Assembly (NCBI GenBank): GCA_005882115.1
Contig: VBEG01000030.1
Span: 1-48,799, forward strand
Source: Chloroflexota bacterium
GTDB taxonomy: Bacteria; Chloroflexota; Dormibacteria; Dormibacterales; Dormibacteraceae
DNA length: 48,799 nucleotides
Reading direction: 5' to 3'
A program made the translations under genes and the position numbers. Each line of letters begins with the position of its first letter. The stretch's first letter is position 1. This document shows positions 9,574 through 48,799 of the stretch, one piece after another. Under the pieces are notes generated by a model, which saw only the letters and a list, made by a program, of their open reading frames with translations, was not told the DNA's origin and ran no database searches.

Positions 9574-10797
9574 ATGGTGGCTTCCAGCAGGTGGCGCAAC
9601 CTCGGCGCAGCCGCCGGCGCGGCCACCGCCGCTCTGTTCGCGATCTTCGACCTCTATCAGTGGGCGCTCGCTTATGCCGGCGACCGGTTCCACAACGATT
9701 TCACCTTCTATTTCGCCGCGGCCAAGATCGGCCTCACGCACGGTTGGGGCTCGATCTACGACCTGGCCCTGCAGCAGGCTCAGCTCGATGCGATGGGCTC
9801 CCGAATCACGATCGCGCAGCTGGCGCGCTACATCAGCCCACCACCTGTGGCGTGGTCGGCGCTGCCCTTCACCGCTTTGCCTTATGAGGTCGCCTACTGG
9901 GTCTGGTCCGCTCTGCTCGTAGCCGCCCTCGCCGCGGCCTGGTGGCTCGTCTCCCCCGCTGTGGGGCACGCGCGCGTGATCTTCCTTGCCGCGGCGCTCG
10001 GCTGGCTGCCGGTGATCTACGGCCTGCAGCTCGGCCAGCCTGGACTGTTCGTGGCTCTCGGTGTGGCCGGGTCCTACGCCTTGCTCAAAGCCAACCGGCC
10101 CCTGTGGGCCGGGGTCGCGCTCGGAGCGCTCGCGCTCAAGCCCCAGCTCGGATTTCTGGTCCCGCTGGCTCTGCTCGCGGCGCGCGAATACCGCGCTTTT
10201 CTCGGAAGCGTGATCGCGCTCGGCGTGCTGGGCGTGGCCTCGGTGCTCGCGCTTGGTGCCGACGGTCTGAACTCATACTTCGACCGCCTCAGCTTTGCGG
10301 CGGGCGTACCTGTGAATCGCGAGCTGACGATCGCCTACTTCGCCGGCACAGGCAACGCCACGCGGCTGATCCAGTTCACGTTCGCCGTTTGGTCGGTCGG
10401 CCTCGCGGCCCTTTTGCGGCGACGTGGCATCGAGTGGATGTACGCGTGCGCCCTGGTTGGAGGCATGCTCGCCACCCCCTACGTTCACCTCGACGACCTG
10501 GTCATGCTCGGACTGGCCGCTTGGCTCCTGCTCCGGGCGCGACCCGTCGCCTGGACGTGGGTCTACGCGTTGGCGGGCGTGCTTGCCGTGGAAGGCGAGC
10601 CGATCTGGGGCCCGGTGCCGGTCATCGTCGCCGAGCTCGGCGCACTCGTCTTGCTGTCAGTCGCGTCGCTGAAACATGACGACCGCGACACCGAGGAGCA
10701 CCGCGCCGAAGGCGAGCATGATGCCCGCCTCGAGCGGGATCGGCAGCACCTGTCCGCCGATCGTCAGCCCGAGGCTGTTGACACCAGGCAGGCCTGA
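9574..10797 (+). CDS. GT87/DUF2029-like polytopic mannosyltransferase-type membrane protein
   Basis: A 407-residue membrane protein with around ten hydrophobic segments. The first extracytoplasmic loop reads HNDFTFYFAAAKIGLTHGW and contains the acidic residue expected of GT-C enzymes; ALKPQLGFLVPLALLA is typical of the DUF2029 (GT87) family, whose characterised actinobacterial members use polyprenyl-phosphomannose. The acceptor is unknown. The start is taken as the ATG at 9574 (a TTG is adjacent at 9571), facing the divergent GNAT gene 27 bp away. The last 46 or so codons, hydrophilic and Asp/Glu/Arg-rich, lie antisense to the 3' end of the ABC permease gene, an unusually long convergent overlap of 141 bp. 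Confidence 0.75.
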   Translation: MVASSRWRNLGAAAGAATAALFAIFDLYQWALAYAGDRFHNDFTFYFAAAKIGLTHGWGSIYDLALQQAQLDAMGSRITIAQLARYISPPPVAWSALPFTALPYEVAYWVWSALLVAALAAAWWLVSPAVGHARVIFLAAALGWLPVIYGLQLGQPGLFVALGVAGSYALLKANRPLWAGVALGALALKPQLGFLVPLALLAAREYRAFLGSVIALGVLGVASVLALGADGLNSYFDRLSFAAGVPVNRELTIAYFAGTGNATRLIQFTFAVWSVGLAALLRRRGIEWMYACALVGGMLATPYVHLDDLVMLGLAAWLLLRARPVAWTWVYALAGVLAVEGEPIWGPVPVIVAELGALVLLSVASLKHDDRDTEEHRAEGEHDARLERDRQHLSADRQPEAVDTRQA

Positions 10798-31245: not shown

Positions 31246-33339
31246 TTAGCAGTGCGTACCGGGCAGGTACCAGGCGGTCTGCCCGTGGCATTTGGCAGTG
31301 ATCAGCCCGGCCGGCTGGCTGTACCACTCGTTGGGCAGATGCAGGGCGCCGAGGGCGTCTTGCATGAAGCGGTGCCACATGGGCGCCGCGATGTAATAGC
31401 TGTCCGAGTTCTTCGTCATCTTCATCCGCCAGTCGGCGTTGCCGCCCCAAACGGCGGTCACGATGTGCGGCGTGAATCCGACCGTCCAGGCGTCAGCGAA
31501 GGAGTCCGACGTCCCGGTCTTCACCGCCACTTTGCGACCGGGGAGCGTGAGGAGAGAGTTGTGGCCAAAGATCATCGCCCGGTTGTTGTCGTTGGACATG
31601 ATCATCTGCATGATGTACGCCACACGCGCATCGAGGACCCGCTTGCCGGGGTCTGCCGGGTGGGAGTAGATGACCTGGCCCGTTGACGTCGACTTGACCA
31701 TGTTGATCGCGTATGGCTGGCGAAGAAGTCCCTGCGTGGCCAGGACCGAAGCGCCAATCGCCATCTGCAAGGGGGTCTCTCCGTATCCACCGAGGGTCAG
31801 CGACGCGCCGTAGCTGTTAAGCGGGTCGTTGGTGGTGAACAGAGGGTTGCCATAGGCATCGACGCCGTGCTGCTGGTACGGCGGCGCACCCATGGCGCGC
31901 GCCATCTGCACGACACTGGCGACTCCCACGCCAAGCTCGACCTTGACCGCGGGGATGTTCAGCGAGTTGCCCATGCACGCCTGCAACTGACAGGTGCCGT
32001 GGGTCTTGCCATCGTAGTTCCGCGGCGTGTAAGACTCGGTCGATCCAGGCTCGCGATAGGTGAACCTGCTGTCGCGGATCGGTGTCGTCATCGTGAACTT
32101 CTTGCTGGCGATGGCTGCGGTGTACGTGTAGATCTTCATCGACGACCCTGGGTTGCGCGGAGGCCATACCGCGAGGTTGTACTGACCGCCATATGCGTTC
32201 GGGTTCGCGGACCCGACCATCGCGATGATCGCGCCGGTCGTTGGATCGAGGGACACCAATGCGCCCTGCGTGACATTTCGATAGCGAAGCTTCGCGATGT
32301 TCTGGCTCACGTCGCGCTGCGCGAGGTCTTGCAGCCTGGGGTTGAGCGTGGTTACGACCCGCATTCCCCCGCTGTATGTCGCTTCCGCCCCGAACTGGTT
32401 GATCAGAATGCTGGTCACGTAGCGCACGAACGACGGCGCGACGGCCTGGTTCGAGGGCATGAACATGTGCGCCGGAGGCGATAGGTCCTCGACGAACGCC
32501 TTGGCCGCGTCGGCGGCGGTGATCTTGCCGTCGCGGATCATCGCGTCGAGCACCGTCTTCTGGCGCTGCTTGGCCGACGTCCAGTTGACCAGTGGGTTGT
32601 AGATCGTCGGTCCGCGGATGATCCCGGCCAGCATCGAGGCTTGCGCCAGGTCCAGCTTGCTGGTCGTGGTGTGGAAGTAAATCTTCGACGCGGCCGCGGT
32701 GCCCCACGCGGTGTTGGCGAAAAAGACGCTGTTCAGATACCACTCGAGGATCTGGTCCTTCGTGTACTTGCGCTCGATCTGGAACGCGAGCAGCGCCTCA
32801 CGCATCTTGCGGTCGAGCGTCGCGTCGTTGCCGACAAGGCGGAGCTTCACCAGCTGCTGGGTGATCGTCGACGCGCCTTCGGCGTTCGAGTGCGTCCGGA
32901 GGTCGACGATCGAGGCACGCACGATGCCCTGTGGGTCGATTCCCGGCTCCGAGTAGAAGTTACGGTCTTCGATCGAGATCACTGCCGCGGGCAGGAGGCT
33001 GCCCATCTGGGACAGCGGCTCGAAGTACGCCTGATAACCGGGCGGGTGAAGGTCGGCCAGCAGCGTCGTGTTGTCCGCCGCGTAGATGAGCGTGTCCTCG
33101 GGGGTCGCTGAAGTCACGGCGTCCGGGTCAGGCAATTTGTCGGCGAAGGCGACATAGCCCGGCGAGGTCACTAAGAGGCTGGGCACGGCGATCGCGACCA
33201 GTGCGAACACGCGCAGAAGCCAGCTGGCGGGTCGTGAAACCTTGAAGCCGGGTTCTAGCACTTGCGACGCGCTGGCGCGTCGCCTCATGCCATTCGGCCT
33301 AAGAGGCCAGGCGGTCTGTCTGCGGTGGTTCAGCGGCAT
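31246..33339 (-). CDS. Class A penicillin-binding protein (first copy)
   Basis: A 697-residue bifunctional peptidoglycan synthase of the PBP1a type, membrane-anchored. A TM helix is at about residues 40-62. The GT51 transglycosylase has catalytic Glu124 in IEDRNFYSEPG and EGASTITQQLVK (154-165). The transpeptidase has S399 and K402 in GSSMK, the SxN motif in GNSLNIPAV and KTGTSDSF. The ATG at 33339 has the strong SD GAGGGGGG and overlaps the 3' end of the upstream gene by 41 bp; an ATG at 33288 would avoid the overlap but has a poor SD. The C-terminus is short, ending in LPGTHC. A second class A PBP is at 39151-41244. Confidence 0.93.
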   Translation of the reverse strand: MPLNHRRQTAWPLRPNGMRRRASASQVLEPGFKVSRPASWLLRVFALVAIAVPSLLVTSPGYVAFADKLPDPDAVTSATPEDTLIYAADNTTLLADLHPPGYQAYFEPLSQMGSLLPAAVISIEDRNFYSEPGIDPQGIVRASIVDLRTHSNAEGASTITQQLVKLRLVGNDATLDRKMREALLAFQIERKYTKDQILEWYLNSVFFANTAWGTAAASKIYFHTTTSKLDLAQASMLAGIIRGPTIYNPLVNWTSAKQRQKTVLDAMIRDGKITAADAAKAFVEDLSPPAHMFMPSNQAVAPSFVRYVTSILINQFGAEATYSGGMRVVTTLNPRLQDLAQRDVSQNIAKLRYRNVTQGALVSLDPTTGAIIAMVGSANPNAYGGQYNLAVWPPRNPGSSMKIYTYTAAIASKKFTMTTPIRDSRFTYREPGSTESYTPRNYDGKTHGTCQLQACMGNSLNIPAVKVELGVGVASVVQMARAMGAPPYQQHGVDAYGNPLFTTNDPLNSYGASLTLGGYGETPLQMAIGASVLATQGLLRQPYAINMVKSTSTGQVIYSHPADPGKRVLDARVAYIMQMIMSNDNNRAMIFGHNSLLTLPGRKVAVKTGTSDSFADAWTVGFTPHIVTAVWGGNADWRMKMTKNSDSYYIAAPMWHRFMQDALGALHLPNEWYSQPAGLITAKCHGQTAWYLPGTHC

Positions 33340-34900: not shown

Positions 34901-36985
34901 GTGCGTCGAACGGGGGTATCGGGAGTGCAGCTACTACAGGGGCTTCTGTCGGATCTCCGTTCACGCCCCAAGCGGCATCTCGGGCTTGCGTTCATCGCGG
35001 TCTCCAACCACATCACAGTCGTCGTCCTGGCCGCAGCTCCGACCGTCCTCGCCGTGCCCGCCCTCAACCCGACCCAGTCTGCCTGCTCGATCGAAAATTG
35101 CATCAATGCGGTCGCGGTCGAAAGCGACGCCCGGTTGAGTCTGCCGGCAGGCCATCCGCAATGCGAGGAGTCCGGTCCCACCGCCTCATGCGAGGTGGAG
35201 GGCACGGCCGCCGACTCGGTACCCGGCACCCCGGCCGTGCCGGAAGGACAGTCGGCATGTCCGTCGACCGATGTCAAACCGGTGCCCACGACGCCGGCCG
35301 CGTGCAGCGACACGTTGTTGCCGCCAATCGCACCAGCACGCTCCAGTGGAGATCCGGCCCTGATCGTGATGCCGAGCGTTCCGGCTGCCTCGTTGGGAGC
35401 GCGACTAACATCGCGCCTGGAGCTCACCGCCACCGCGGACACGCTCCGCTCGGGCAGGCAAGTGGTTCTCACCGCGACTGCCAGCGCCAGCGTCACCTCG
35501 ACCGGGACCGCCATCGAAATCTTCGACACCACCTCCGGGACCCTGATCGCCGCATGCGGTCAGGGCAACCAGTGCGCGGTGGGCTACACGGCAATTTCGG
35601 GCGTCCACGACTTTGTCGCCTTTATCACCCCGCCGATGGTGTCTCCTCCGGATGAAGCAAGCGCGTTGGAGTCCAACCACAGCACCGTGGGATGGCTGGA
35701 CAGCGCAGTGACCGCCAGCGCCGCCATCGTCGGCCGCGACCAGGCCATCACCATCACCGCCACTTCGACCATCGATGTCGCGCAGGGCGGCCGTTGGCTC
35801 GAGATCTATGACCTCACCGCCGGATCGCGGATCACGTACTGCAGCCGCGGCACAAGCTGCTCGACTGTCGTCAAAGAGACGAAAGGTGGCGTCCACCAGA
35901 TCGTCGGTTACGTCACGGGAGAGCCGGAAGCCGTGTCTGCGCCCATCGGTCTGACCTGGCTTGACGTCAGCCTCTCGGCGACCACGGTCGGCCCGAAGGT
36001 CGACGGTACCGTCTATCTCAAGGCGGTCACCAACACCGACCTCACCGACACTCCCTGGGTCGTGGGCATCTACGACGACCAGGGACACCTCGTCGACCAT
36101 GCGTGCAAGACCGGCAACACATGCTCGGTGCAGGCATCGGTGTCCGGACAGACCACGCCGAAATACACCGCAGTCGTCGGCGTGTTGCCGGAGGCCATAC
36201 CCACCGCCAAGAGCAACGTTGTGCAGAAGGCGCCGGCCGCGCCGGCTCTGGTCGACATCCAGGCCAAGTCGGCCGCCATTGAGCCCACACACCTGCTGTG
36301 GGGGGTCGATTCCTGCAAGCCGTTCATCGGCGGAGGGCAGAACCTCTACAACGCCGTTGTCCGTTCCCTGGGGAGTCCCGATTTCTGGGGCCGGTACCTG
36401 ACGAACACGGTTTGTCCCGGCATCAGCTCGACCGAGATCGCACTGGCATCAAGCCACCACATGGGGATTCTGCCGATCTACAACGACTACAACTGCTCCG
36501 CCGTCGTCTCCTACGCGACCGGCCACCAGTACGCTGTCGAAGCCGCCGCTGCGGCAAACCGGCTGGGCATCCCGGCGGGCCGGCTGCTCGCGATCGACAT
36601 CGAGCCGCCCGGTCCGGCATGCCCGGGCGCGGGAGGCGTTGATGGAGGCTTCATCGAGGGCTGGTATGACGGTGTCCACGAGGCAGGCTATGTGCCCGTC
36701 TACTACGGCAATGGGACCGCCGGCACCGAGTTCGCCAGAGCGTGGTGCTCGACCGTGGCTAGTCTGCCCAACGTGGCGGCCGAGTCGGCCATCTGGTCCT
36801 TCGAGCCGTCGTTGCTGGGCCGCTACTACAAGGCCAAGGCTCCGAACTTCGCCCCGTACAAGCCTGGCTGCGCAGGCAATGTCGAGGCCTGGCAGTACAT
36901 GCTCAGCGCCGGATCAAACGTCGACGTCGACCAAGACGAAGCGCTTTCCACCCTGCCCCTGTGGTACCCGGTGACGGCTTCCTGA
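34901..36985 (+). CDS. Secreted DUF1906-type glycoside-hydrolase-like protein with Ig-like repeats
   Basis: A 694-residue exported protein. An N-terminal hydrophobic helix (FIAVSNHITVVVLAAAPTVL) acts as signal or anchor. The middle has three similar beta-rich repeats of about 100-110 residues; each carries the pattern IYDxx-G-x-C-x(5)-C (EIFDTTSG...CGQGNQC; EIYDLTAG...CSRGTSC; GIYDDQGH...CKTGNTC). The C-terminal ~220 residues (HLLWGVDSCKPF to DVDQDEAL) match the DUF1906 TIM-barrel-like fold of Rv2525c-type proteins, including AIDIEPPG and the final WQY...DVDQD. GTG at 34901 is used, though a GTG at 34925 is also possible. A cell-wall role is known for some relatives; a strong terminator follows. 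Confidence 0.75.
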   Translation: MRRTGVSGVQLLQGLLSDLRSRPKRHLGLAFIAVSNHITVVVLAAAPTVLAVPALNPTQSACSIENCINAVAVESDARLSLPAGHPQCEESGPTASCEVEGTAADSVPGTPAVPEGQSACPSTDVKPVPTTPAACSDTLLPPIAPARSSGDPALIVMPSVPAASLGARLTSRLELTATADTLRSGRQVVLTATASASVTSTGTAIEIFDTTSGTLIAACGQGNQCAVGYTAISGVHDFVAFITPPMVSPPDEASALESNHSTVGWLDSAVTASAAIVGRDQAITITATSTIDVAQGGRWLEIYDLTAGSRITYCSRGTSCSTVVKETKGGVHQIVGYVTGEPEAVSAPIGLTWLDVSLSATTVGPKVDGTVYLKAVTNTDLTDTPWVVGIYDDQGHLVDHACKTGNTCSVQASVSGQTTPKYTAVVGVLPEAIPTAKSNVVQKAPAAPALVDIQAKSAAIEPTHLLWGVDSCKPFIGGGQNLYNAVVRSLGSPDFWGRYLTNTVCPGISSTEIALASSHHMGILPIYNDYNCSAVVSYATGHQYAVEAAAAANRLGIPAGRLLAIDIEPPGPACPGAGGVDGGFIEGWYDGVHEAGYVPVYYGNGTAGTEFARAWCSTVASLPNVAAESAIWSFEPSLLGRYYKAKAPNFAPYKPGCAGNVEAWQYMLSAGSNVDVDQDEALSTLPLWYPVTAS

Positions 36986-37594: not shown

Positions 37595-39151
37595 TTACCC
37601 CGCTCGGAGACCCGGCGCGGCGGCCAGGTCGCGGATGTCCTGGACTTGGCGGGTGATCCAGCGCGCGATATCGTTCGTCCTCACGACCTCCCGCGCCCCC
37701 TCGTTGCGGCGACGCTTCTCGTCGATGCCCATCACGATCGCCTGGTGCATTGCGTTGGCCGTGGCATCGATGTCAAACGGGTTGACCGAGAGCACGTGTG
37801 GGTGCAGCTCCTCGTGCGCGCCGACGTTCTCGGAAAGGACGATCACGCCGTCGGACCGATTGACAAGCGCGCCCTCTTTGGCCACCAGGTTGAGCCCGTC
37901 GTAGACGGAGTTCACGAGCAGCACGTCGAAGTTGCGCATCGCAGCCATCGCCTTGCGCACGCTCTCCCCCAGCTCCAGACGCACGGGCAGCCACCCCTGC
38001 GCCCCGTACTGGGTGTTGATCCGCTGCACGACCTGCCGCACCTTGCGGACGTAGTGGCGATACGCCGCGACGTCCTGGCGCGACGGCTGAAGGAAGGCCC
38101 AGAACTGCACGCGTCCCTTCAGCTCCGGGTGATGCGCGAGGAGCTTCTCGTAGGCGAGGAAGCCGCGGACGATGTTCTTCGACGGGTCGGTGCGGTCGAT
38201 GCGCACGATCAGGTGCTCCGGCCGCCAGTCGCGAAGCTTGCGCTCTTCGACCATCACGCCATGTGAGTACGAGAGCCGAGTCATGCTCGCGACGTCGATC
38301 GAGATGGGATACGCGCGCGCGTAGACGACGCGGCCGTCGATCAGCACTGCCCGCTCCCGCTCGTCCACCGCGAGCCCGAGGTTCTCCTCGCAGGTCATCA
38401 GAAAGTTGCGCACGTCCAGGCTCGTCTGAAATCCGACGATGTCGCACCCCAGCAAGCCCTGCACGATCGCGTCGCGAATCTCGCGTGGAAGCACTTTCCA
38501 GTACTGCGGCGTGGGCCAGGGAATGTGGACGAAGTGCTGGATGATCCCGCCGCTCAACTGGTCGCGGACCAGCTTGGGCACCAGGTACATCTGGTAGTCG
38601 TGGACCATCACGAGCGGCCTGCCCGGCAGCCCTCGCGCCACCTCGACCACCTTGCGCGCAATCTGCTTGTTGACCTCGACGTAGCCGTTCTTCCACGCGC
38701 GGTGAATGCGCCCGTTGATCACGGGCTGGTTGGCGAGGTCCCAGAGGTAGTGCTGCACGAACCACAACACAGGGTTCGAGATGACCGAGTAGTGCTGCTC
38801 GTACTGCTCTGGCGTGGGCGTCGCGTAGTGCAGGCGCGTCGTGGTCCGGATCAAGGGCGCGTTCCATGTGGTGCCGTGCTGCTCGATCAGGGCGCGCTCG
38901 CCAGCCGTTCGTGCGCAGGCCACCCAGTCGGCCCCGGTGACCTCGGCGAACGTCAGCAGAGCCGTGATCACGCCGCCGGCCCCGCGCGTGAAGCCACCTT
39001 CCGGACGCGGCTCATGCGGGGCGCGGTTCGCGACCACGATCGCCGAGCTGTGCGGCAGCGTACGTGTCACATAGCCGCGCAGCGAAGTGCCCGGCCGGCG
39101 CCGCTCGACGCTGTCCAGGAACGGGCTGTCAGGTTCGTTCATCACAAGCAT
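37595..39151 (-). CDS. otsA: Trehalose-6-phosphate synthase (GT20)
   Basis: A 518-residue GT-B glycosyltransferase that joins UDP- or ADP-glucose to glucose-6-phosphate. Motifs: IVVANRAPHEP and GGFTRGAGGVITALL at the N-terminus, MVHDYQMYLVP, HIPWPTPQYWKVLP (active-site loop), GFQTSLDVRNFL, IDRTDPSKNIVRGF and NSVYDGLNLVAKEG with GAHEEL near the C-terminus. The ATG at 39151 overlaps the stop of the PBP gene (ATGA). The frame extends upstream to 39385 inside that gene, which I reject. No phosphatase (otsB) is adjacent. Trehalose would serve osmotic and desiccation stress. Confidence 0.92.
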   Translation of the reverse strand: MLVMNEPDSPFLDSVERRRPGTSLRGYVTRTLPHSSAIVVANRAPHEPRPEGGFTRGAGGVITALLTFAEVTGADWVACARTAGERALIEQHGTTWNAPLIRTTTRLHYATPTPEQYEQHYSVISNPVLWFVQHYLWDLANQPVINGRIHRAWKNGYVEVNKQIARKVVEVARGLPGRPLVMVHDYQMYLVPKLVRDQLSGGIIQHFVHIPWPTPQYWKVLPREIRDAIVQGLLGCDIVGFQTSLDVRNFLMTCEENLGLAVDERERAVLIDGRVVYARAYPISIDVASMTRLSYSHGVMVEERKLRDWRPEHLIVRIDRTDPSKNIVRGFLAYEKLLAHHPELKGRVQFWAFLQPSRQDVAAYRHYVRKVRQVVQRINTQYGAQGWLPVRLELGESVRKAMAAMRNFDVLLVNSVYDGLNLVAKEGALVNRSDGVIVLSENVGAHEELHPHVLSVNPFDIDATANAMHQAIVMGIDEKRRRNEGAREVVRTNDIARWITRQVQDIRDLAAAPGLRAG

Positions 39152-41244
39152 CACGAGGGTGTGGGCTGCGCTTGTGCCTGGGGTGACGGAGAGGGGTTGG
39201 GCGATGGGGACGGCGAGGGGACGATGGAAGGCAACACGCTCGGCAGGGTCGAAGGCGAGCTGCTGGGCGACGGGGTCTGCGGTGACGATGACGGCGTGGG
39301 CGATGCGGTGCAGGCGCCGGGCAGGAATGGGTCTTTGGTGTCGCTGCCACAGCCGATCGTGATGCCCGCGGGCTTCGGGTACCAATCGCGCATGGTCGGC
39401 GGCAGGTTGTTGATGAAGCGCTTCATGATCGTCAGCCCGACGTTCTCACCGTAGGCGCTGATGAGCCCTCCTCCGCCGTTCGGCGCCGTGTTGCCGACCC
39501 AAACGCCGATCACGATGTCGGGGTTGTAGGCCATGATCCACGAGTCCGGGATCCCGCCCTTACCGTTGTCGCTGGTCCCTGTTTTGCTCGCCATCTGGCG
39601 GTTCCAACCGAAGCCCCATGTGTTCTGGTAGTTCCTCAGGACGTCTGACATCAGGTACGCCTCCGCGTGGGTGAGCACGGTGGTGCTGTTGCCGCCGTAC
39701 TTGAACGCTGCGTGACCACTCGAGTCGTCGACCTCCTTGATCGCGTTGAGGTCGACCCGTTGACCCTGGTCGGCGAACGTCTGATATCCCTGCACGTGCT
39801 CGTAAAGCGTGACGTCGCTCGCGCCGATGGCGGTTGACAGGTAAGGCTGGAGCTGGCTCTTGATGCCCATCGCGTGCGCGAGGTCGACGACGTTTTGCAT
39901 CCCTTCCATCTGCCCAACCTCGACCGCCGGGATGTTCCGGGAATAGAGGATGGCGGTGCTTGCCTTGATGTCGCCCATACCGCCGTTGTCGAAGTCGCGC
40001 GGCTTGTAGCCGTTGAAATCGGTCAGGTGGTCGTGGAGGATGGTCGCCCACGTGATCTTGTGATCGCGCAGCGCGGCTTCATAGACATAGGGCTTGAACG
40101 AAGAGCCAGGCTGGCGCTTCGAGCGGACGACGTCGAACTGGCCGCCGATGGAGTTGTTGGCGTAGTCGGCCGACCCAACCCACGCCAGGATCTCGCCGTT
40201 TCTCGGGTCGGCGGCGAGCAACGCCGAATTGTTGACGTTCATGTCCGCGAGGTCGCGCACGCCGTTGGCGACCGCGCTCTGCGCGTTCTGCTGGACGCCG
40301 AGGTCGAGCGTCGTATGGACGACGATGCCGCCCTGCTGGATGGCGGCTGAACCAAACATGGTCTCGAGGTCGGAGAGCACGTAGTCGACGAAGTGCGGCG
40401 CCTTGCTCTGCCGGGCGCTCGCCTGGATGTGGAGCTCCTTTTTGATGTCCTCGCCGGCTGCCTTGTCGGCGTCCGCCTGGCTCAGCGCGCCGGTCGAAAC
40501 CATGCCTTGCAGGACGTAGAGCTCGCGCTGCTGTGCGTCGTCGTAATGGGTCACCGGATCGTAGGCGGTGGGGGCCTGGATGAGACCCGCCAGGAACGCG
40601 GCCTGCGCGGGCGTCAAGTCCTTCGCGTCTTTGTTGAAGTACGTGCGGGCGGCAGCGCCGACGCCGTACGCTCCATGCCCGAAGTACACGCGGTTCATGT
40701 ACATGCCGAGGATCTGGTCTTTCGAGTAACGCTGCTCGAGCGCGATCGCGAGCACCATCTCCTGGACCTTTCGTGTGAAAGACTTCTGCGGCGTGAGCAG
40801 CTGAATCTTCACCAGCTGCTGGGTGATTGTGCTGGCGCCTTCGTTGAAGCCCCGCGACGTCAGGTCCACCCACGCCGCCCGTGCGATCGACGCGGGGTCG
40901 AGCGCTCCGTGGTTGTAGAAGTTGCGGTCCTCGGCCGCGAGCACGGCCTTGGCCGCATACGGTCCCATCTGCTGGAGCGTCAGCGTGACGTGGTAGTGGC
41001 CTGCCGGGCTCCAGTCCTCGATCAGCTTGCCGTTGCGGTCGAGCACCATGACGTCGCCGGCCGCGAGCACGTTCTGGCTCGGGTCGGGCAGGTCCTTGAC
41101 CGCCCACAGGATGTAGAGGGTCGTGGCGAGGAGCAACGCGCCAACACCCGCGGCGATCCAGATCTTCTGTGCCCAGAGCCAGACGATTGGTCGGAGCCAG
41201 AGAGGATGCTGCTGGTGGCCACGCGCCACCGGACTGCTGACCAC
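39151..41244 (-). CDS. Class A penicillin-binding protein (second copy)
   Basis: A 697-residue PBP1a-type peptidoglycan glycosyltransferase/transpeptidase. A TM helix is at about residues 30-48. The GT51 has Glu105 in AAEDRNFYNHG and EGASTITQQLVK. The transpeptidase has S381 and K384 in GSSFK, SRN in YSRNIPAVE and KTGTSDNG. The last ~50 residues are an extracellular Pro/Ser tail (SPTPSSSPQTPSPSSSP and so on), absent from the copy at 31246-33339. The GTG at 41244 is used, with GGAG motifs about 15 bp upstream. The stop overlaps the otsA start. Whether it is housekeeping or stress-linked is not visible. Confidence 0.94.
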   Translation of the reverse strand: MVSSPVARGHQQHPLWLRPIVWLWAQKIWIAAGVGALLLATTLYILWAVKDLPDPSQNVLAAGDVMVLDRNGKLIEDWSPAGHYHVTLTLQQMGPYAAKAVLAAEDRNFYNHGALDPASIARAAWVDLTSRGFNEGASTITQQLVKIQLLTPQKSFTRKVQEMVLAIALEQRYSKDQILGMYMNRVYFGHGAYGVGAAARTYFNKDAKDLTPAQAAFLAGLIQAPTAYDPVTHYDDAQQRELYVLQGMVSTGALSQADADKAAGEDIKKELHIQASARQSKAPHFVDYVLSDLETMFGSAAIQQGGIVVHTTLDLGVQQNAQSAVANGVRDLADMNVNNSALLAADPRNGEILAWVGSADYANNSIGGQFDVVRSKRQPGSSFKPYVYEAALRDHKITWATILHDHLTDFNGYKPRDFDNGGMGDIKASTAILYSRNIPAVEVGQMEGMQNVVDLAHAMGIKSQLQPYLSTAIGASDVTLYEHVQGYQTFADQGQRVDLNAIKEVDDSSGHAAFKYGGNSTTVLTHAEAYLMSDVLRNYQNTWGFGWNRQMASKTGTSDNGKGGIPDSWIMAYNPDIVIGVWVGNTAPNGGGGLISAYGENVGLTIMKRFINNLPPTMRDWYPKPAGITIGCGSDTKDPFLPGACTASPTPSSSPQTPSPSSSPSTLPSVLPSIVPSPSPSPNPSPSPQAQAQPTPS

Positions 41245-43571: not shown

Positions 43572-45287
43572 TTGGAAGCGTTCGGCGAATTCCTGGCCAG
43601 TCGCCCCGTGTTAGGACGGCGGCTGGCGCTAAACGGATTCGTCCTGATGGCCGGACTTCTTCTCATGCTTGCTCGCACGTCTCCGGCTCTGGCGTCCGAC
43701 AACGGACACGGCCAGGGCAAAGCACAAGATCATACGAGTGCTTCCGCGGTCGCTCAGCGCCATGACAGCCAGTCGGCGCACAACGAGCAGACCGTCGGCG
43801 GGGACGGCGACGGCAAGAAAGGGAAAGGCAAGGGCGAGGGCGGGACTGGCAGCGGCAGCCATACCAACGGCAGCAGCGGCCATACGAGCGGGAGCGACAA
43901 GACCGGCGGCACCAGCAACGCGGCGGTAAAGCCAACGGTCAGCTCGGGCGACAGCTCGGCGGCGAAGGCCTCCGGCAGCTCGAGCAGCGACGCGCACGCG
44001 AGCGGAAACGCTCACGCGAGCGCCGACACCAGCGTCCACGCGAGCGGCAACGCTCACGCGAGCGCCGACACCAGCGTCCACGCAAGCGGCAACGCTCACG
44101 CAAGCAGCGACACCAGCGCCCACGCGAGCGGCAACGCTCACGCGAGCAGTGACACCAGCGCGCACGCGAACAGCCACGCAAGCGACAGCGCGAAGAGCAG
44201 CGGCGACGGCAAGGCCAACGTCAGCATCAAGGCCAAGGGCAATGCAGCCGCCACCACCGACGCTTCCGGAAAGTCCAAGGAAAAGGACGAGGAAGGCAAC
44301 GCCGACTCCCGCGGCGACGTGGCGGGCGGCAAGTCGGGCAATGGCGACGACCGCGACAAGGTGACGGCCAAGGGCAATGACAAGCACGAGGCCGACTCCG
44401 ACGGCGAGAGCACCGGAGCCAGCACCGGCAACACGACTGGCAGCACCGCGACCACGGGGAGCGCGGGCAACGCCAGCACCGCCTCGGTGGGCGCGAGCAC
44501 CGGCAACACGGCCGGCAGCGCAGCCTCCGGCACCAAGTCGACCGGCAGCGGTCAGGAGAAGAGCACGGGCGCCTCGGTGGGCGCGAGCACCGGCAACACC
44601 GCCGGCAGCGCGGCTTCGGGCAGCACGGGCAACAACCAGAGCACCGGCGCCTCGGTGGGCGCAAGCACCGGCAACACGGCCGGCAGCGCGGCCTCCAACA
44701 GCACCGGCAACCAGAGCACCGGCTCGGTGGGCGCGAGCACCGGCAACACCGCCGGCAGCGCGGCTTCGGGCAGCACGGGCAACAACAAGAGCACCGGCGC
44801 CTCGGTGGGCGCGAGCACCGGCAACACGGCCGGCAGCGCGGCTTCCAACAGCACCGGCAACAAGAGCAGCGGCTCGGTGGGCGCGAGCACCGGCAACACG
44901 GCCGGCAGCGCGGCTTCGGGCAGCACGGGCAACAACCAGAGCACCGGCGCCTCAGTCGGCGCGAGCACCGGCAACACGGCCGGCAGCGCGGCTTCGGGCA
45001 GCACGGGCAACAACCAGAGCACCGGCACCGGTAACAGCACCAGCACAAGCACCGGCGGCACCAGCGTCAGCACCAGCACCGGCACCAGCACAAGCACCGG
45101 CGGCGGAGTCGGTGGCGGCGGTGGCGGAACCGTGGGTGGCGGCGGCGGCGGAACCGTGGGTGGCGGCGGCGGCGGAACCGTGGGTGGCGGCGGCGGCGGA
45201 ACCGTTGGCGGCGGTGGAACGACCACCGGCGGCGGGACCACGACCACCGCATCGGGCGGCGTAAGCGGCGCGACCGCGACAAGGTGA
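43572..45287 (+). CDS. Repeat-rich secreted surface protein, truncated by a duplication
   Basis: Start TTG at 43572 with SD GGAGGT 6 bp upstream. The signal peptide is at about residues 1-41 ([20 protein letters not shown], cleavage after ALA likely). Four 14-residue repeats [14 protein letters not shown] lie at 143-198, then a charged linker, then eight units of 24-30 residues starting [10 protein letters not shown], and finally a Gly-rich stretch ([12 protein letters not shown]). It ends out of frame at a tandem-duplication junction (GATATR then stop) and lacks a membrane anchor. Low complexity with Ser/Thr/Gly/Asn suggests an extended, possibly glycosylated stalk. The true protein probably continues into the 45284-46252 frame; see that entry. 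Confidence 0.75.
43995..44162 (+). repeat. Four 42 bp tandem repeats coding [14 protein letters not shown]
   Basis: Four consecutive in-frame 42 bp units within the surface-protein gene. They vary at two positions (Ala/Ser and Val/Ala at the unit end), with synonymous changes. The length is a multiple of three, so copy-number change would keep the frame here. Confidence 0.85.
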
Positions 45288-46137
45288 CGGCCAAGGGCAA
45301 TGACAAGCACGAGGCCGACTCCGACGGCGAGAGCACCGGAGCCAGCACCGGCAACACGACTGGCAGCACCGCGACCACGGGGAGCGCGGGCAACGCCAGC
45401 ACCGCCTCGGTGGGCGCGAGCACCGGCAACACGGCCGGCAGCGCGGCTTCGGGCAGCACGGGCAACAACCAGAGCACCGGCGCCTCGGTGGGCGCGAGCA
45501 CCGGCAACACCGCCGGCAGCGCGGCCTCCAACAGCACCGGCAACCAGAGCAGCGGCTCGGTGGGCGCGAGCACCGGCAACACCGCTGGCAGCGCGGCCTC
45601 CAACAGCACCGGCAACCAGAGCAGCGGCTCGGTGGGCGCGAGCACCGGCAACACGGCCGGCAGCGTGGCCTCCAACAGCACCGGCAATCAGAGCAGCGGC
45701 TCGGTGGGCGCGAGCACCGGCAACACGGCCGGCAGCGCGGCCTCCAACAGCACCGGCAACCAGACTGGCAGCACCGCGACCACGGGGAGCGCGGGCAACG
45801 CCAGCACCGCCTCGGTGGGCGCGAGCACCGGCAACACCGCCGGCAGCGCCCAGTCCAACAGCACGGGCAACCAGAGCACCAGCACCGGTAACAGCACCAG
45901 CACAAGCACCGGCGGCACCAGCGTCAGCACCAGCACCGGCACCAGCACAAGCACCGGCGGCGGAGTCGGTGGCGGCGGTGGCGGAACCGTGGGTGGCGGC
46001 GGCGGCGGAACCGTGGGTGGCGGCGGCGGCGGAACCGTGGGTGGCGGCGGCGGCGGAACCGTTGGCGGCGGTGGAACGACCACCGGCGGCGGGACCACGA
46101 CCACCGCATCGGGCGGCGTAAGCGGCGCGACCGCGAC
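44348..46137 (+). repeat. Large tandem duplication (923 bp and 857 bp units) with CGACCGCGAC borders
   Basis: CGACCGCGAC occurs at 44348, 45271 and 46128 and marks the unit borders. Each unit runs from the [20 protein letters not shown] coding stretch through the [10 protein letters not shown] array and Gly-rich block. The units differ in the number and order of internal repeats (eight against seven GAST units). Both lengths leave remainder 2 on division by 3, so the frame changes at the junction. Each unit also contains many shorter internal repeats that could recombine. Confidence 0.9.
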
Positions 46138-46252
46138 CTCGGGCGGCCAGGGTCAAGTTCTTGCGGCTACAGGTGCACCCATCGCGGGCGGCATCCTAGG
46201 CGGCATCCTGTTCCTGCTCGGCGCCCTCGGACTTCGCAACCGACGGCGCTAA
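45284..46252 (+). pseudogene. C-terminal part of the surface protein with LAATG sorting signal, separated from its start
   Basis: A 322-residue frame with a possible GTG but no ribosome-binding site or signal peptide. It repeats the [15 protein letters not shown] stretch, seven [10 protein letters not shown]-type units and the Gly-rich block, then ends in LAATGAPIAGGILG, a hydrophobic helix and the basic tail RNRRR. This is a sortase sorting signal of the LAxTG type, known for class E sortases of high-GC Gram-positives. Removing one 923 bp unit (44358-45280) joins this frame to the upstream 43572 frame and yields one 585-codon protein having both signal peptide and anchor. No sortase gene is in the window. 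The present split may be genuine or an assembly artefact. Confidence 0.75.
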
Positions 46253-46261
46253 TCGACAATC

Positions 46262-46301
46262 GACCGGCCGGGCTCGCAACTTGCGGGCCCGGTCTTTTTT
46301 T
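46262..46301 (+). terminator. Rho-independent terminator after the surface protein gene
   Basis: CCGGGCTCGCAA pairs with TTGCGGGCCCGG (one wobble), followed by a T-run at 46294-46301. It ends the surface-protein transcript. Confidence 0.85.
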
Positions 46302-46478: not shown

Positions 46479-47759
46479 GTGGAAGCAGCCGCGCTGCGGA
46501 TCGGCGACAAGGTGACGCTCGAGGCCGATGGCGGCGCGAGATCAAAACGGCCTGGTCAGCAGCTCGAGCGATCACAGGGATCAGCCCTTGCCGCGCTGGC
46601 AGCGGTCTCGTCCTACCTGGACTCGGACGAAGACCTACCGACCTTCTTCGGCCGCCTGGGCGCCACGATCGCCGAGCAGATCGGCGCCCGCCGAGCCGCC
46701 TTCTGGCGCCTTGGGCCTCGGGGCACGCTGAGCCTCCAGCCGGCGCCGCACGGCTTCGCGGACGACTCCCCAGTGCATCACCTGCGGCTGGCTCTCGGAG
46801 CCAAGCGCGAGGGGGTCATCGAGCGCCTCGTCTTCGCCGACGACCTCGAGCTCGTCAAGGGGACGTCCCCGCGCCTCGACGCGCTCTGGCACGGAGCCGG
46901 CCTGACCGACGTGAAGAGCTCGATCGCCGTCGCCTGGCGCGCTGGCGAACGGCGCATAGGCGCCGTCGCCGTCTACGACTCACCCCACGGCTTCACCGCC
47001 CACGACCTGTGGGCCCTCCGGCTCGTTGGCATGGCCGCGGGCCTCGTCTGGCAGTACAAGGAATCCGAAGACGAGCTCGGGCGTATCGCGGTCCGCCTCG
47101 AGCAGGCGATGTCCGCGCGCCGCCATCTGCTCAACAACATCGCGGCTGGTGGCGACGAGGCGCGGCGGCGCTTCGCGAGCGCGCTTCACGACGATTCGCT
47201 CCAGCTGCTCACCGGCGCCGAGCTGCAGCTGGAACGAATCCGCGGCGACTCGAACGCCAACCACCTCGATCAGCGCCTCGAGGAGCTACGGATGACCCTC
47301 CGCAAGGTCGAGGACTCGCTGCGGCGCCTGCTCACGAACGTGAGCCCGGAGCCGCTGCAGCTGCCGAGTGACCTCCGCGAAGCGATCAGCGAGCGTCTCG
47401 AGTCGATGCGAGTCCGCGCCGGCATCGAGCCCCACATCGAGAGCAAGCTGCCGGACGGCATCCCGACCGCGATCCAGGCGATCGTCCTGAAGAACGTCCA
47501 GGAAGCGCTTAACAACGTCGAGAAGCACGCTCGCGCGACCAGGGTCACAGTCGTCACCGATAGCGTCGAGAACGGCATAAGGGTCGAAGTCAGAGACGAC
47601 GGCAAAGGCTTCGTCGTCGCCGAATCCGCGCGCCTGCCCGGCCACATCGGCCTGGTCGCCGTTCGCGAGCGGGCGCAGCTCGCCGGCGGCTGGTTCCACG
47701 TCGCAAGCGAGCCGGGGACCGGCACGAAGCTCGAGTTCTGGGTACCACTGAGCCTGTAA
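46479..47759 (+). CDS. GAF sensor histidine kinase, paralogue of 26106-27923
   Basis: A 426-residue soluble kinase. One GAF-like domain at about residues 40-200, then HisKA_3 with RRFASALHDDSLQLL (phospho-acceptor His237) and HATPase_c with N box QEALNNVEKHARATRV, G1 DDGKGF and G2 LPGHIGLVAVRERAQLAGGW. Its second half is closely similar to the kinase at 26106-27923, and VAWRAGERRIGAVAVYDS matches VPWRAGDQRLGQVAAYDS there, so the two are paralogues, this one lacking the first GAF. The GTG at 46479 has GGGGGAA 5 bp upstream. No response regulator gene follows; a HAMP-array gene does (42 bp). It may share the NarL-type regulator at 27926. Confidence 0.88.
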   Translation: MEAAALRIGDKVTLEADGGARSKRPGQQLERSQGSALAALAAVSSYLDSDEDLPTFFGRLGATIAEQIGARRAAFWRLGPRGTLSLQPAPHGFADDSPVHHLRLALGAKREGVIERLVFADDLELVKGTSPRLDALWHGAGLTDVKSSIAVAWRAGERRIGAVAVYDSPHGFTAHDLWALRLVGMAAGLVWQYKESEDELGRIAVRLEQAMSARRHLLNNIAAGGDEARRRFASALHDDSLQLLTGAELQLERIRGDSNANHLDQRLEELRMTLRKVEDSLRRLLTNVSPEPLQLPSDLREAISERLESMRVRAGIEPHIESKLPDGIPTAIQAIVLKNVQEALNNVEKHARATRVTVVTDSVENGIRVEVRDDGKGFVVAESARLPGHIGLVAVRERAQLAGGWFHVASEPGTGTKLEFWVPLSL

Positions 47760-47801: not shown

Positions 47802-48799
47802 ATGGCGACCAAGGCGGCAACCAGAAGCAGGAACGGCGCAGACGCGATCGACAGCAAGGTCGCGCTCCGCGTCCTGGCTTCAGTTCAGCGCGGAGACTTT
47901 TCGGTCCGCATGCCGACCGACTGGTCTGGATCGGCCGGCAAGGTGGCCGCGGCGATCAACGACATCATTGAGTCGAACCAGCGCGTCGAGCGCGAGATCC
48001 GCCGTCTGAGCCGCAACGTCGGCAAAGAGGGCCAGGTCAAGCGCGCAGCGGTCGGCCACTCCGGCGGCGCGTGGGCGGCGACGCTCGACGCGGTCAACGA
48101 CCTCGTCGAAGACCTCGCGCAGCCCAACACCGAGATCGCACGCGTAATCGGCGCAGTCGCCAACGGCGACCTCTCGCAAACCATGGCGCTCGAGATCGAC
48201 GGGCGGCCACTGCAAGGCCAGTTCCTCACCACAGCCAAGACCGTCAACACGATGGTCGGGCAGCTCAACGCGTTCGCGAGCGAGGTCACGCGTGTGGCGC
48301 GCGAGGTCGGCACTGAAGGAAAGCTCGGCGGTCAGGCGCACGTCCGGGGCGTCGCCGGTGTTTGGAAAGACCTCACGGACAACGTGAACTTGATGGCCGG
48401 CAACCTGACCAGCCAGGTCCGCAACATCGCCGAGGTCACCACCGCGGTCCAGCAAGGCGACCTCTCCAAGAAGATCACGGTCGACGTCCGGGGCGAGATC
48501 CTCGAGCTCAAGCAGACGATCAACACGATGGTCGACCAGCTCAACGCGTTCGCCAACGAGGTGACGCGTGTCGCTCGCGAGGTCGGCACCGCAACATCGC
48601 CGAGGTCACCACCGGCATCGCGAACGGTGACCTCTCCAAGAAGATCACGGTCGACGTCCGGGGCGAGATCCTCGAGCTCAAGAACACCATCAACACGATG
48701 GTCGACCAGCTCAATGCGTTCGGCAACGAGGTGACGCGCGTGGCCCGCGAGGTGGGAACCGAGGGCCGGCTGGGCGGACAGGCCGATGTCAAGGGCGTC
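47802..48799 (+). pseudogene. HAMP-array signalling protein, frameshifted and cut by the window edge
   Basis: Starts at ATG 47802 with AAGGAAGGGA upstream. The product is a series of HAMP-like repeats of about 90 residues, with signature lines [20 protein letters not shown] and [19 protein letters not shown], as in the N-terminal arrays of group III hybrid kinases (Nik1-type) and some bacterial hybrid kinases. At 48589-48591 the frame breaks: relative to the previous repeat, 106 bases are missing (GGCACC joins directly to GCAACATCGCC). The lost stretch corresponds to the segment with [20 protein letters not shown]. The first frame then ends at 48734, while the correct reading resumes in another frame to the window end. 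A kinase module may follow outside the window. Deletion or assembly error is equally likely. Confidence 0.8.

Follow-up and report, generated by a model that had tools for sequence, protein, structure and literature searches.

The two-unit structure at positions 43572-46252 of the window (the whole stretch analysed, 48,799 nucleotides of contig VBEG01000030.1 from a Chloroflexota bacterium of the Dormibacteraceae) is most likely not a real feature. A local misjoin of repeat sequence probably produced both the second unit and its accompanying frame break, and the gene of the organism itself would most likely be a single intact frame, encoding a secreted surface protein with a repeat stalk and an LAATG anchor.

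The features of the split gene and its surroundings are collected in Table 1. The first-pass annotation had assigned the signal peptide to one frame and the sorting signal to the other, each lacking what its partner carries, and re-reading of both frames bears this out; its positions for the three copies of a 10-bp border, CGACCGCGAC, were reproduced on recomputation, as were the two unit lengths, neither of which is a multiple of three. Its proposal that removal of 44358-45280 would leave 262 + 324 codons in frame is also arithmetically sound, and omission of unit 2 instead likewise gives an open frame; that is, the left part, either of the units and the right part together form one open frame. 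The C-terminal end of ORF2 is LAATGAPIAGGILGGILFLLGALGLRNRRR, and ORF2 is free of decay. The region contains three terminator-like sites, where 3.6 are expected by chance; the hairpin downstream of the gene is thus weak alone, and its position fits.

Table 1. Features of the surface-protein locus and the adjoining genes (positions in the window)
Feature	Position	Strand	Remarks
ORF1 as assembled	43572-45287	+	571 aa; signal peptide and repeats, anchor absent; stop codon directly past the junction
ORF2 as assembled	45284-46252	+	322 aa; repeats and LAATG sorting signal, signal peptide absent
Unique 5' part of the surface-protein gene	43572-44357	+	TTG start preceded by GGAGGT; signal peptide; low-complexity stalk
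Border copy 1	44348-44357	+	codon reading ..GAC CGC GAC
Unit 1	44358-45280	+	923 bp (2 mod 3)
Border copy 2, anomalous junction	45271-45280	+	the end of unit 1 meets the start of unit 2 here; misjoin suspected
Unit 2	45281-46137	+	857 bp (2 mod 3)
Border copy 3	46128-46137	+	codon reading GCG ACC GCG AC
Conserved C-terminus	46115-46249	+	SGATATSGG..LAATG, hydrophobic stretch, RRR tail
Terminator-like hairpin and trailing T run	46266-46294	+	just 3' of the surface-protein gene
Histidine kinase, conserved neighbour	46479-47759	+	GAF, HisKA_3, HATPase_c
HAMP-array kinase gene	47802-48734	+	second frame-breaking junction at about 48590; contig end at 48799

The two units are alike at their ends and unlike in their middles. 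Their starts are identical over 174 bp, border included (44348-44521 = 45271-45444), and their ends over 256 bp (45025-45280 = 45882-46137), whereas the 72/78-bp arrays in between differ in the number and type of their repeats and carry private base changes. A plain exact duplication was rejected because of these unlike middles. A dedicated recombination site was rejected as well, because the copies of CGACCGCGAC fall into two codon frames and the 10-mer is also present elsewhere in the window, at 10680 and 23004. The border stands out by its spacing. Among direct repeats of at least 10 bp that lie at least 100 bp apart in the one-unit gene models, 111 of 113 are spaced by multiples of three when unit 1 is kept, and 92 of 93 when unit 2 is kept; the border pair is the sole exception with unit 2 and one of the two exceptions with unit 1. 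Because chance would give a 10-bp match at any one breakpoint with a probability of about 6e-5, the junction must stem from a homology- or overlap-based event, either in the cell or in software.

Had that event taken place in the cell, the 10-bp repeat would have given rise, in this lineage, to a real tandem duplication that is out of frame, with later changes in the arrays; this is the chief rival of the misjoin. Such an allele would be ordinary and unstable, not an evolved device; its product would be a truncated secreted protein, and recombination between the 256-bp or the 174-bp identities would probably undo it. The exact homology at the junction, at a repeat whose out-of-frame spacing is so nearly unique for its length, is consistent with this origin, as is the undecayed state of ORF2; the identical unit ends fit a recent event, and the junction lies beyond the reach of de Bruijn assembly alone. 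Nevertheless, a real duplication appears rather unlikely. The two middles are unequal in repeat number and carry private base changes, of which the 174- and 256-bp ends are free; the duplication could therefore not be simply a fresh copy. Moreover, a second, unrelated frame break occurs in the next repeat gene of the contig, and the duplication is seen in no relative.

The relatives, compared as one genome per species, point to a single frame. In each of six gap-free relatives the locus is one in-frame gene of 363-556 aa; the length was read directly in four of them (G002:C16, 556 aa; G005:C18, 492 aa; G017:C90, 537 aa; G013:C81, 363 aa) and obtained in two by matching the open-frame values at both ends (G047:C17, 515 aa; G049:C38, 546 aa). 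The four genes read directly have one unit, and in G002:C16 the order is GKSGNGDDR, one repeat region and then SGATATSGG..LAATG; none of the relatives that could be read has the two-unit form. In ten genomes of the same genus (G001, G003, G004, G006, G007, G008, G009, G011, G014 and G015) the gene is cut by contig ends, with 5' parts that are in frame up to the contig end (G001, G004, G006, G007, G008, G009, G011 and G015) and 3' parts that are in frame from the contig end onward (G001, G003, G004, G008, G009, G011, G014 and G015). Two further copies, G013:C160 and G016:C203, have their arrays bridged by N, in runs of 89 and 161, respectively. The contig ends in ten genomes and the N bridges in two indicate that the locus defeats these assemblies. 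The intact relatives also bear on the idea that both ORFs serve in their assembled form, or that a programmed frameshift links them in the stretch that is open in both frames. In its favour, the open stretch of the ORF2 frame has 405 codons and overlaps the end of ORF1, but ORF2 alone has no signal peptide and the intact relatives need no frameshift, and this explanation is scarcely credible.

Out-of-register joins are not confined to the surface-protein gene. In the HAMP-array kinase, about 106 bp of one HAMP unit is missing at the second junction, 210 bp before the contig end; the frame is changed there, and the repeat period at the join is 170 bp against the usual 276 bp or so. The same kinase is one frame in eight of eight relatives, with about 1,250-1,710 aa (some of these counts include upstream open codons). 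In an orthologous fragment, G003:C74 (1-3000), the frame shifts at the entry of the array, at a short overlap, and in a paralogue, G002:C73 (2500-8000), the signal peptide and an LANTG anchor lie in different frames, with the break near a repeated GCCAGCACCGG. In a 505-kb sample of the window's genome, drawn from the starts of 40 contigs and from two additional stretches, the other exact repeats of at least 60 bp within 3 kb all keep a spacing divisible by three, and all are located near the ends of contig C7; near both ends of that contig, exact repeats of 72-182 bp are spaced 303-909 bp apart.

If the junction is a misjoin, two variants of the repeat region, either alleles of two strains or separate portions of a single longer array, would have been set in tandem at the 10-bp overlap, and the flanking 174 and 256 bp would have been reused. 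Both this source of the two units and a lack of reads supporting the junction at 45271-45280 are presumed steps. The main argument against a misjoin is the missing junction k-mers: a mix of the two one-unit forms lacks 19 30-mers that span the junction. At k of at least 20, a purely de Bruijn join is unable to cross a 10-bp overlap, and hence a join made by a scaffolder or by local reassembly, chimeric reads, or a real junction is needed; a de Bruijn mix of two alleles as the sole cause was rejected because the junction k-mers would not exist.

The relatives that carry names are Chloroflexi MAGs whose scaffolds are labelled in the style of samples, e.g., 14_0929_05_30cm, and a sample named 14_0903_13_30cm belongs to a Mediterranean grassland set in which reads were trimmed to 200 bp and assembled with IDBA-UD at k up to 200 (Diamond et al., 2019; PMC6784897). 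The style of the scaffold names matches the relatives to this set, and the genome of the window presumably comes from the same study and pipeline. The 256-bp stretch shared by the two units is longer than the reads and the largest k of that set. Local errors, which are suspected to be prominent in IDBA-UD assemblies, and wrong repeat numbers in repeat regions have been described (Chen et al., 2020; PMC7111523). The present locus shares with the local assembly errors and wrong repeat counts of short-read MAGs (Torresen et al., 2019; PMC6868369; Chen et al., 2020) a repeat-rich gene, identical stretches that exceed the reads, an out-of-register join and relatives that break at the same place; it differs from them in that the two units, joined end to end at a 10-bp overlap, are not identical.

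The first-pass annotation had offered, beside mis-assembly, a recombination-driven phase switch; on this reading, gain or loss of a unit would turn cell-wall anchoring off or on within a population. In repeat-number phase variation of surface proteins, a repeat unit that is not divisible by three changes the reading frame. The units of 923 and 857 bp share this property, and a change in their number would alter the frame and part the signal peptide from the anchor; the long identical segments could recombine, and the frame breaks in G003:C74 and G002:C73 indicate that broken copies recur in assemblies. Here, however, the known pattern is departed from in that one state only was seen, the unit is as long as about 0.9 kb, and the border shows no conservation as a site, its copies being read in different codon frames. 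All six gap-free relatives are in frame, and neither a device nor a second state was found among them. The breaks in other genomes lie at different positions and overlaps, one of them also in a HAMP kinase, which is better explained by assembly error, and any added unit would bring translation to a stop no more than three codons from the first junction. Of the two readings offered, mis-assembly is thus favoured, because none of the readable relatives has two units, the relatives are intact or broken by contig ends at this locus, and a second out-of-register join is present on the same contig in an unrelated gene; the switch has gained no positive evidence and is very doubtful. It is highly improbable, too, that a real two-unit allele reverts rapidly through recombination between the 256-bp or 174-bp identities, with cells alternating between anchoring and shedding a conserved surface protein in soil Chloroflexota.

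The gene itself belongs to a lineage-specific, syntenic family of sortase-type surface proteins with a repeat stalk and an LAATG signal in soil Chloroflexota MAGs, whose anchoring is predicted. By inspection, a signal peptide is present in ORF1 and in the relatives, and LAATGAPIAGGILGGILFLLGALGLRNRRR fits an LAXTG motif followed by a hydrophobic stretch and a basic tail. Of the 17 genomes in the genus, 14 contain the N-terminus and 13 the C-terminus with its conserved sorting signal, and of the 42 in the family, 24 and 21, respectively; the repeat type varies between species, and both ends of the protein are conserved. In the relatives the gene adjoins the same histidine kinase as in the window. 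Two class A penicillin-binding proteins with transglycosylase and transpeptidase domains are encoded within 10 kb on the minus strand (31246-33339 and 39151-41244), and the plus strand encodes, at 34901-36985, a large protein whose C-terminal domain is an Rv2525c-like glycoside hydrolase.

The surface-protein gene did not reach the cut-off of any domain or anchor model in Pfam or NCBIfam; LAXTG_small_WW (NF058583) reached 14.5 bits against a cut-off of 65, and the anchor model PF00746 had no match in the genome. Sortases (PF04203) were detected above cut-off in the same genome at C122:6119 and C89:60733. For the better of the two, the best NCBIfam model is class E, at 75 bits against a cut-off of 160, and the general model TIGR01076 is satisfied. 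The surface protein resembles substrates of LAXTG (class E type) sortases, such as the Streptomyces chaplins (PMC5148588), in its signal peptide, LAATG motif, hydrophobic segment and basic tail, and in being encoded in a genome with sortase genes. It differs from the chaplins in its long Ser/Thr/Gly/Ala/Asn repeat stalk and in its host, which belongs to the Chloroflexota and not to the Actinobacteria; it also stands apart from known LAXTG substrates in falling below the cut-off of every Pfam or NCBIfam domain or anchor model.

The locus calls for caution, because frame-breaking repeats of surface-protein genes in short-read MAGs can mimic phase switches. As a by-product of the comparison, a conserved and syntenic family of repeat-stalk LAATG proteins of uncultured soil Chloroflexota has emerged, which the curated Pfam and NCBIfam models leave unnamed and whose genes are cut in two by most assemblies.
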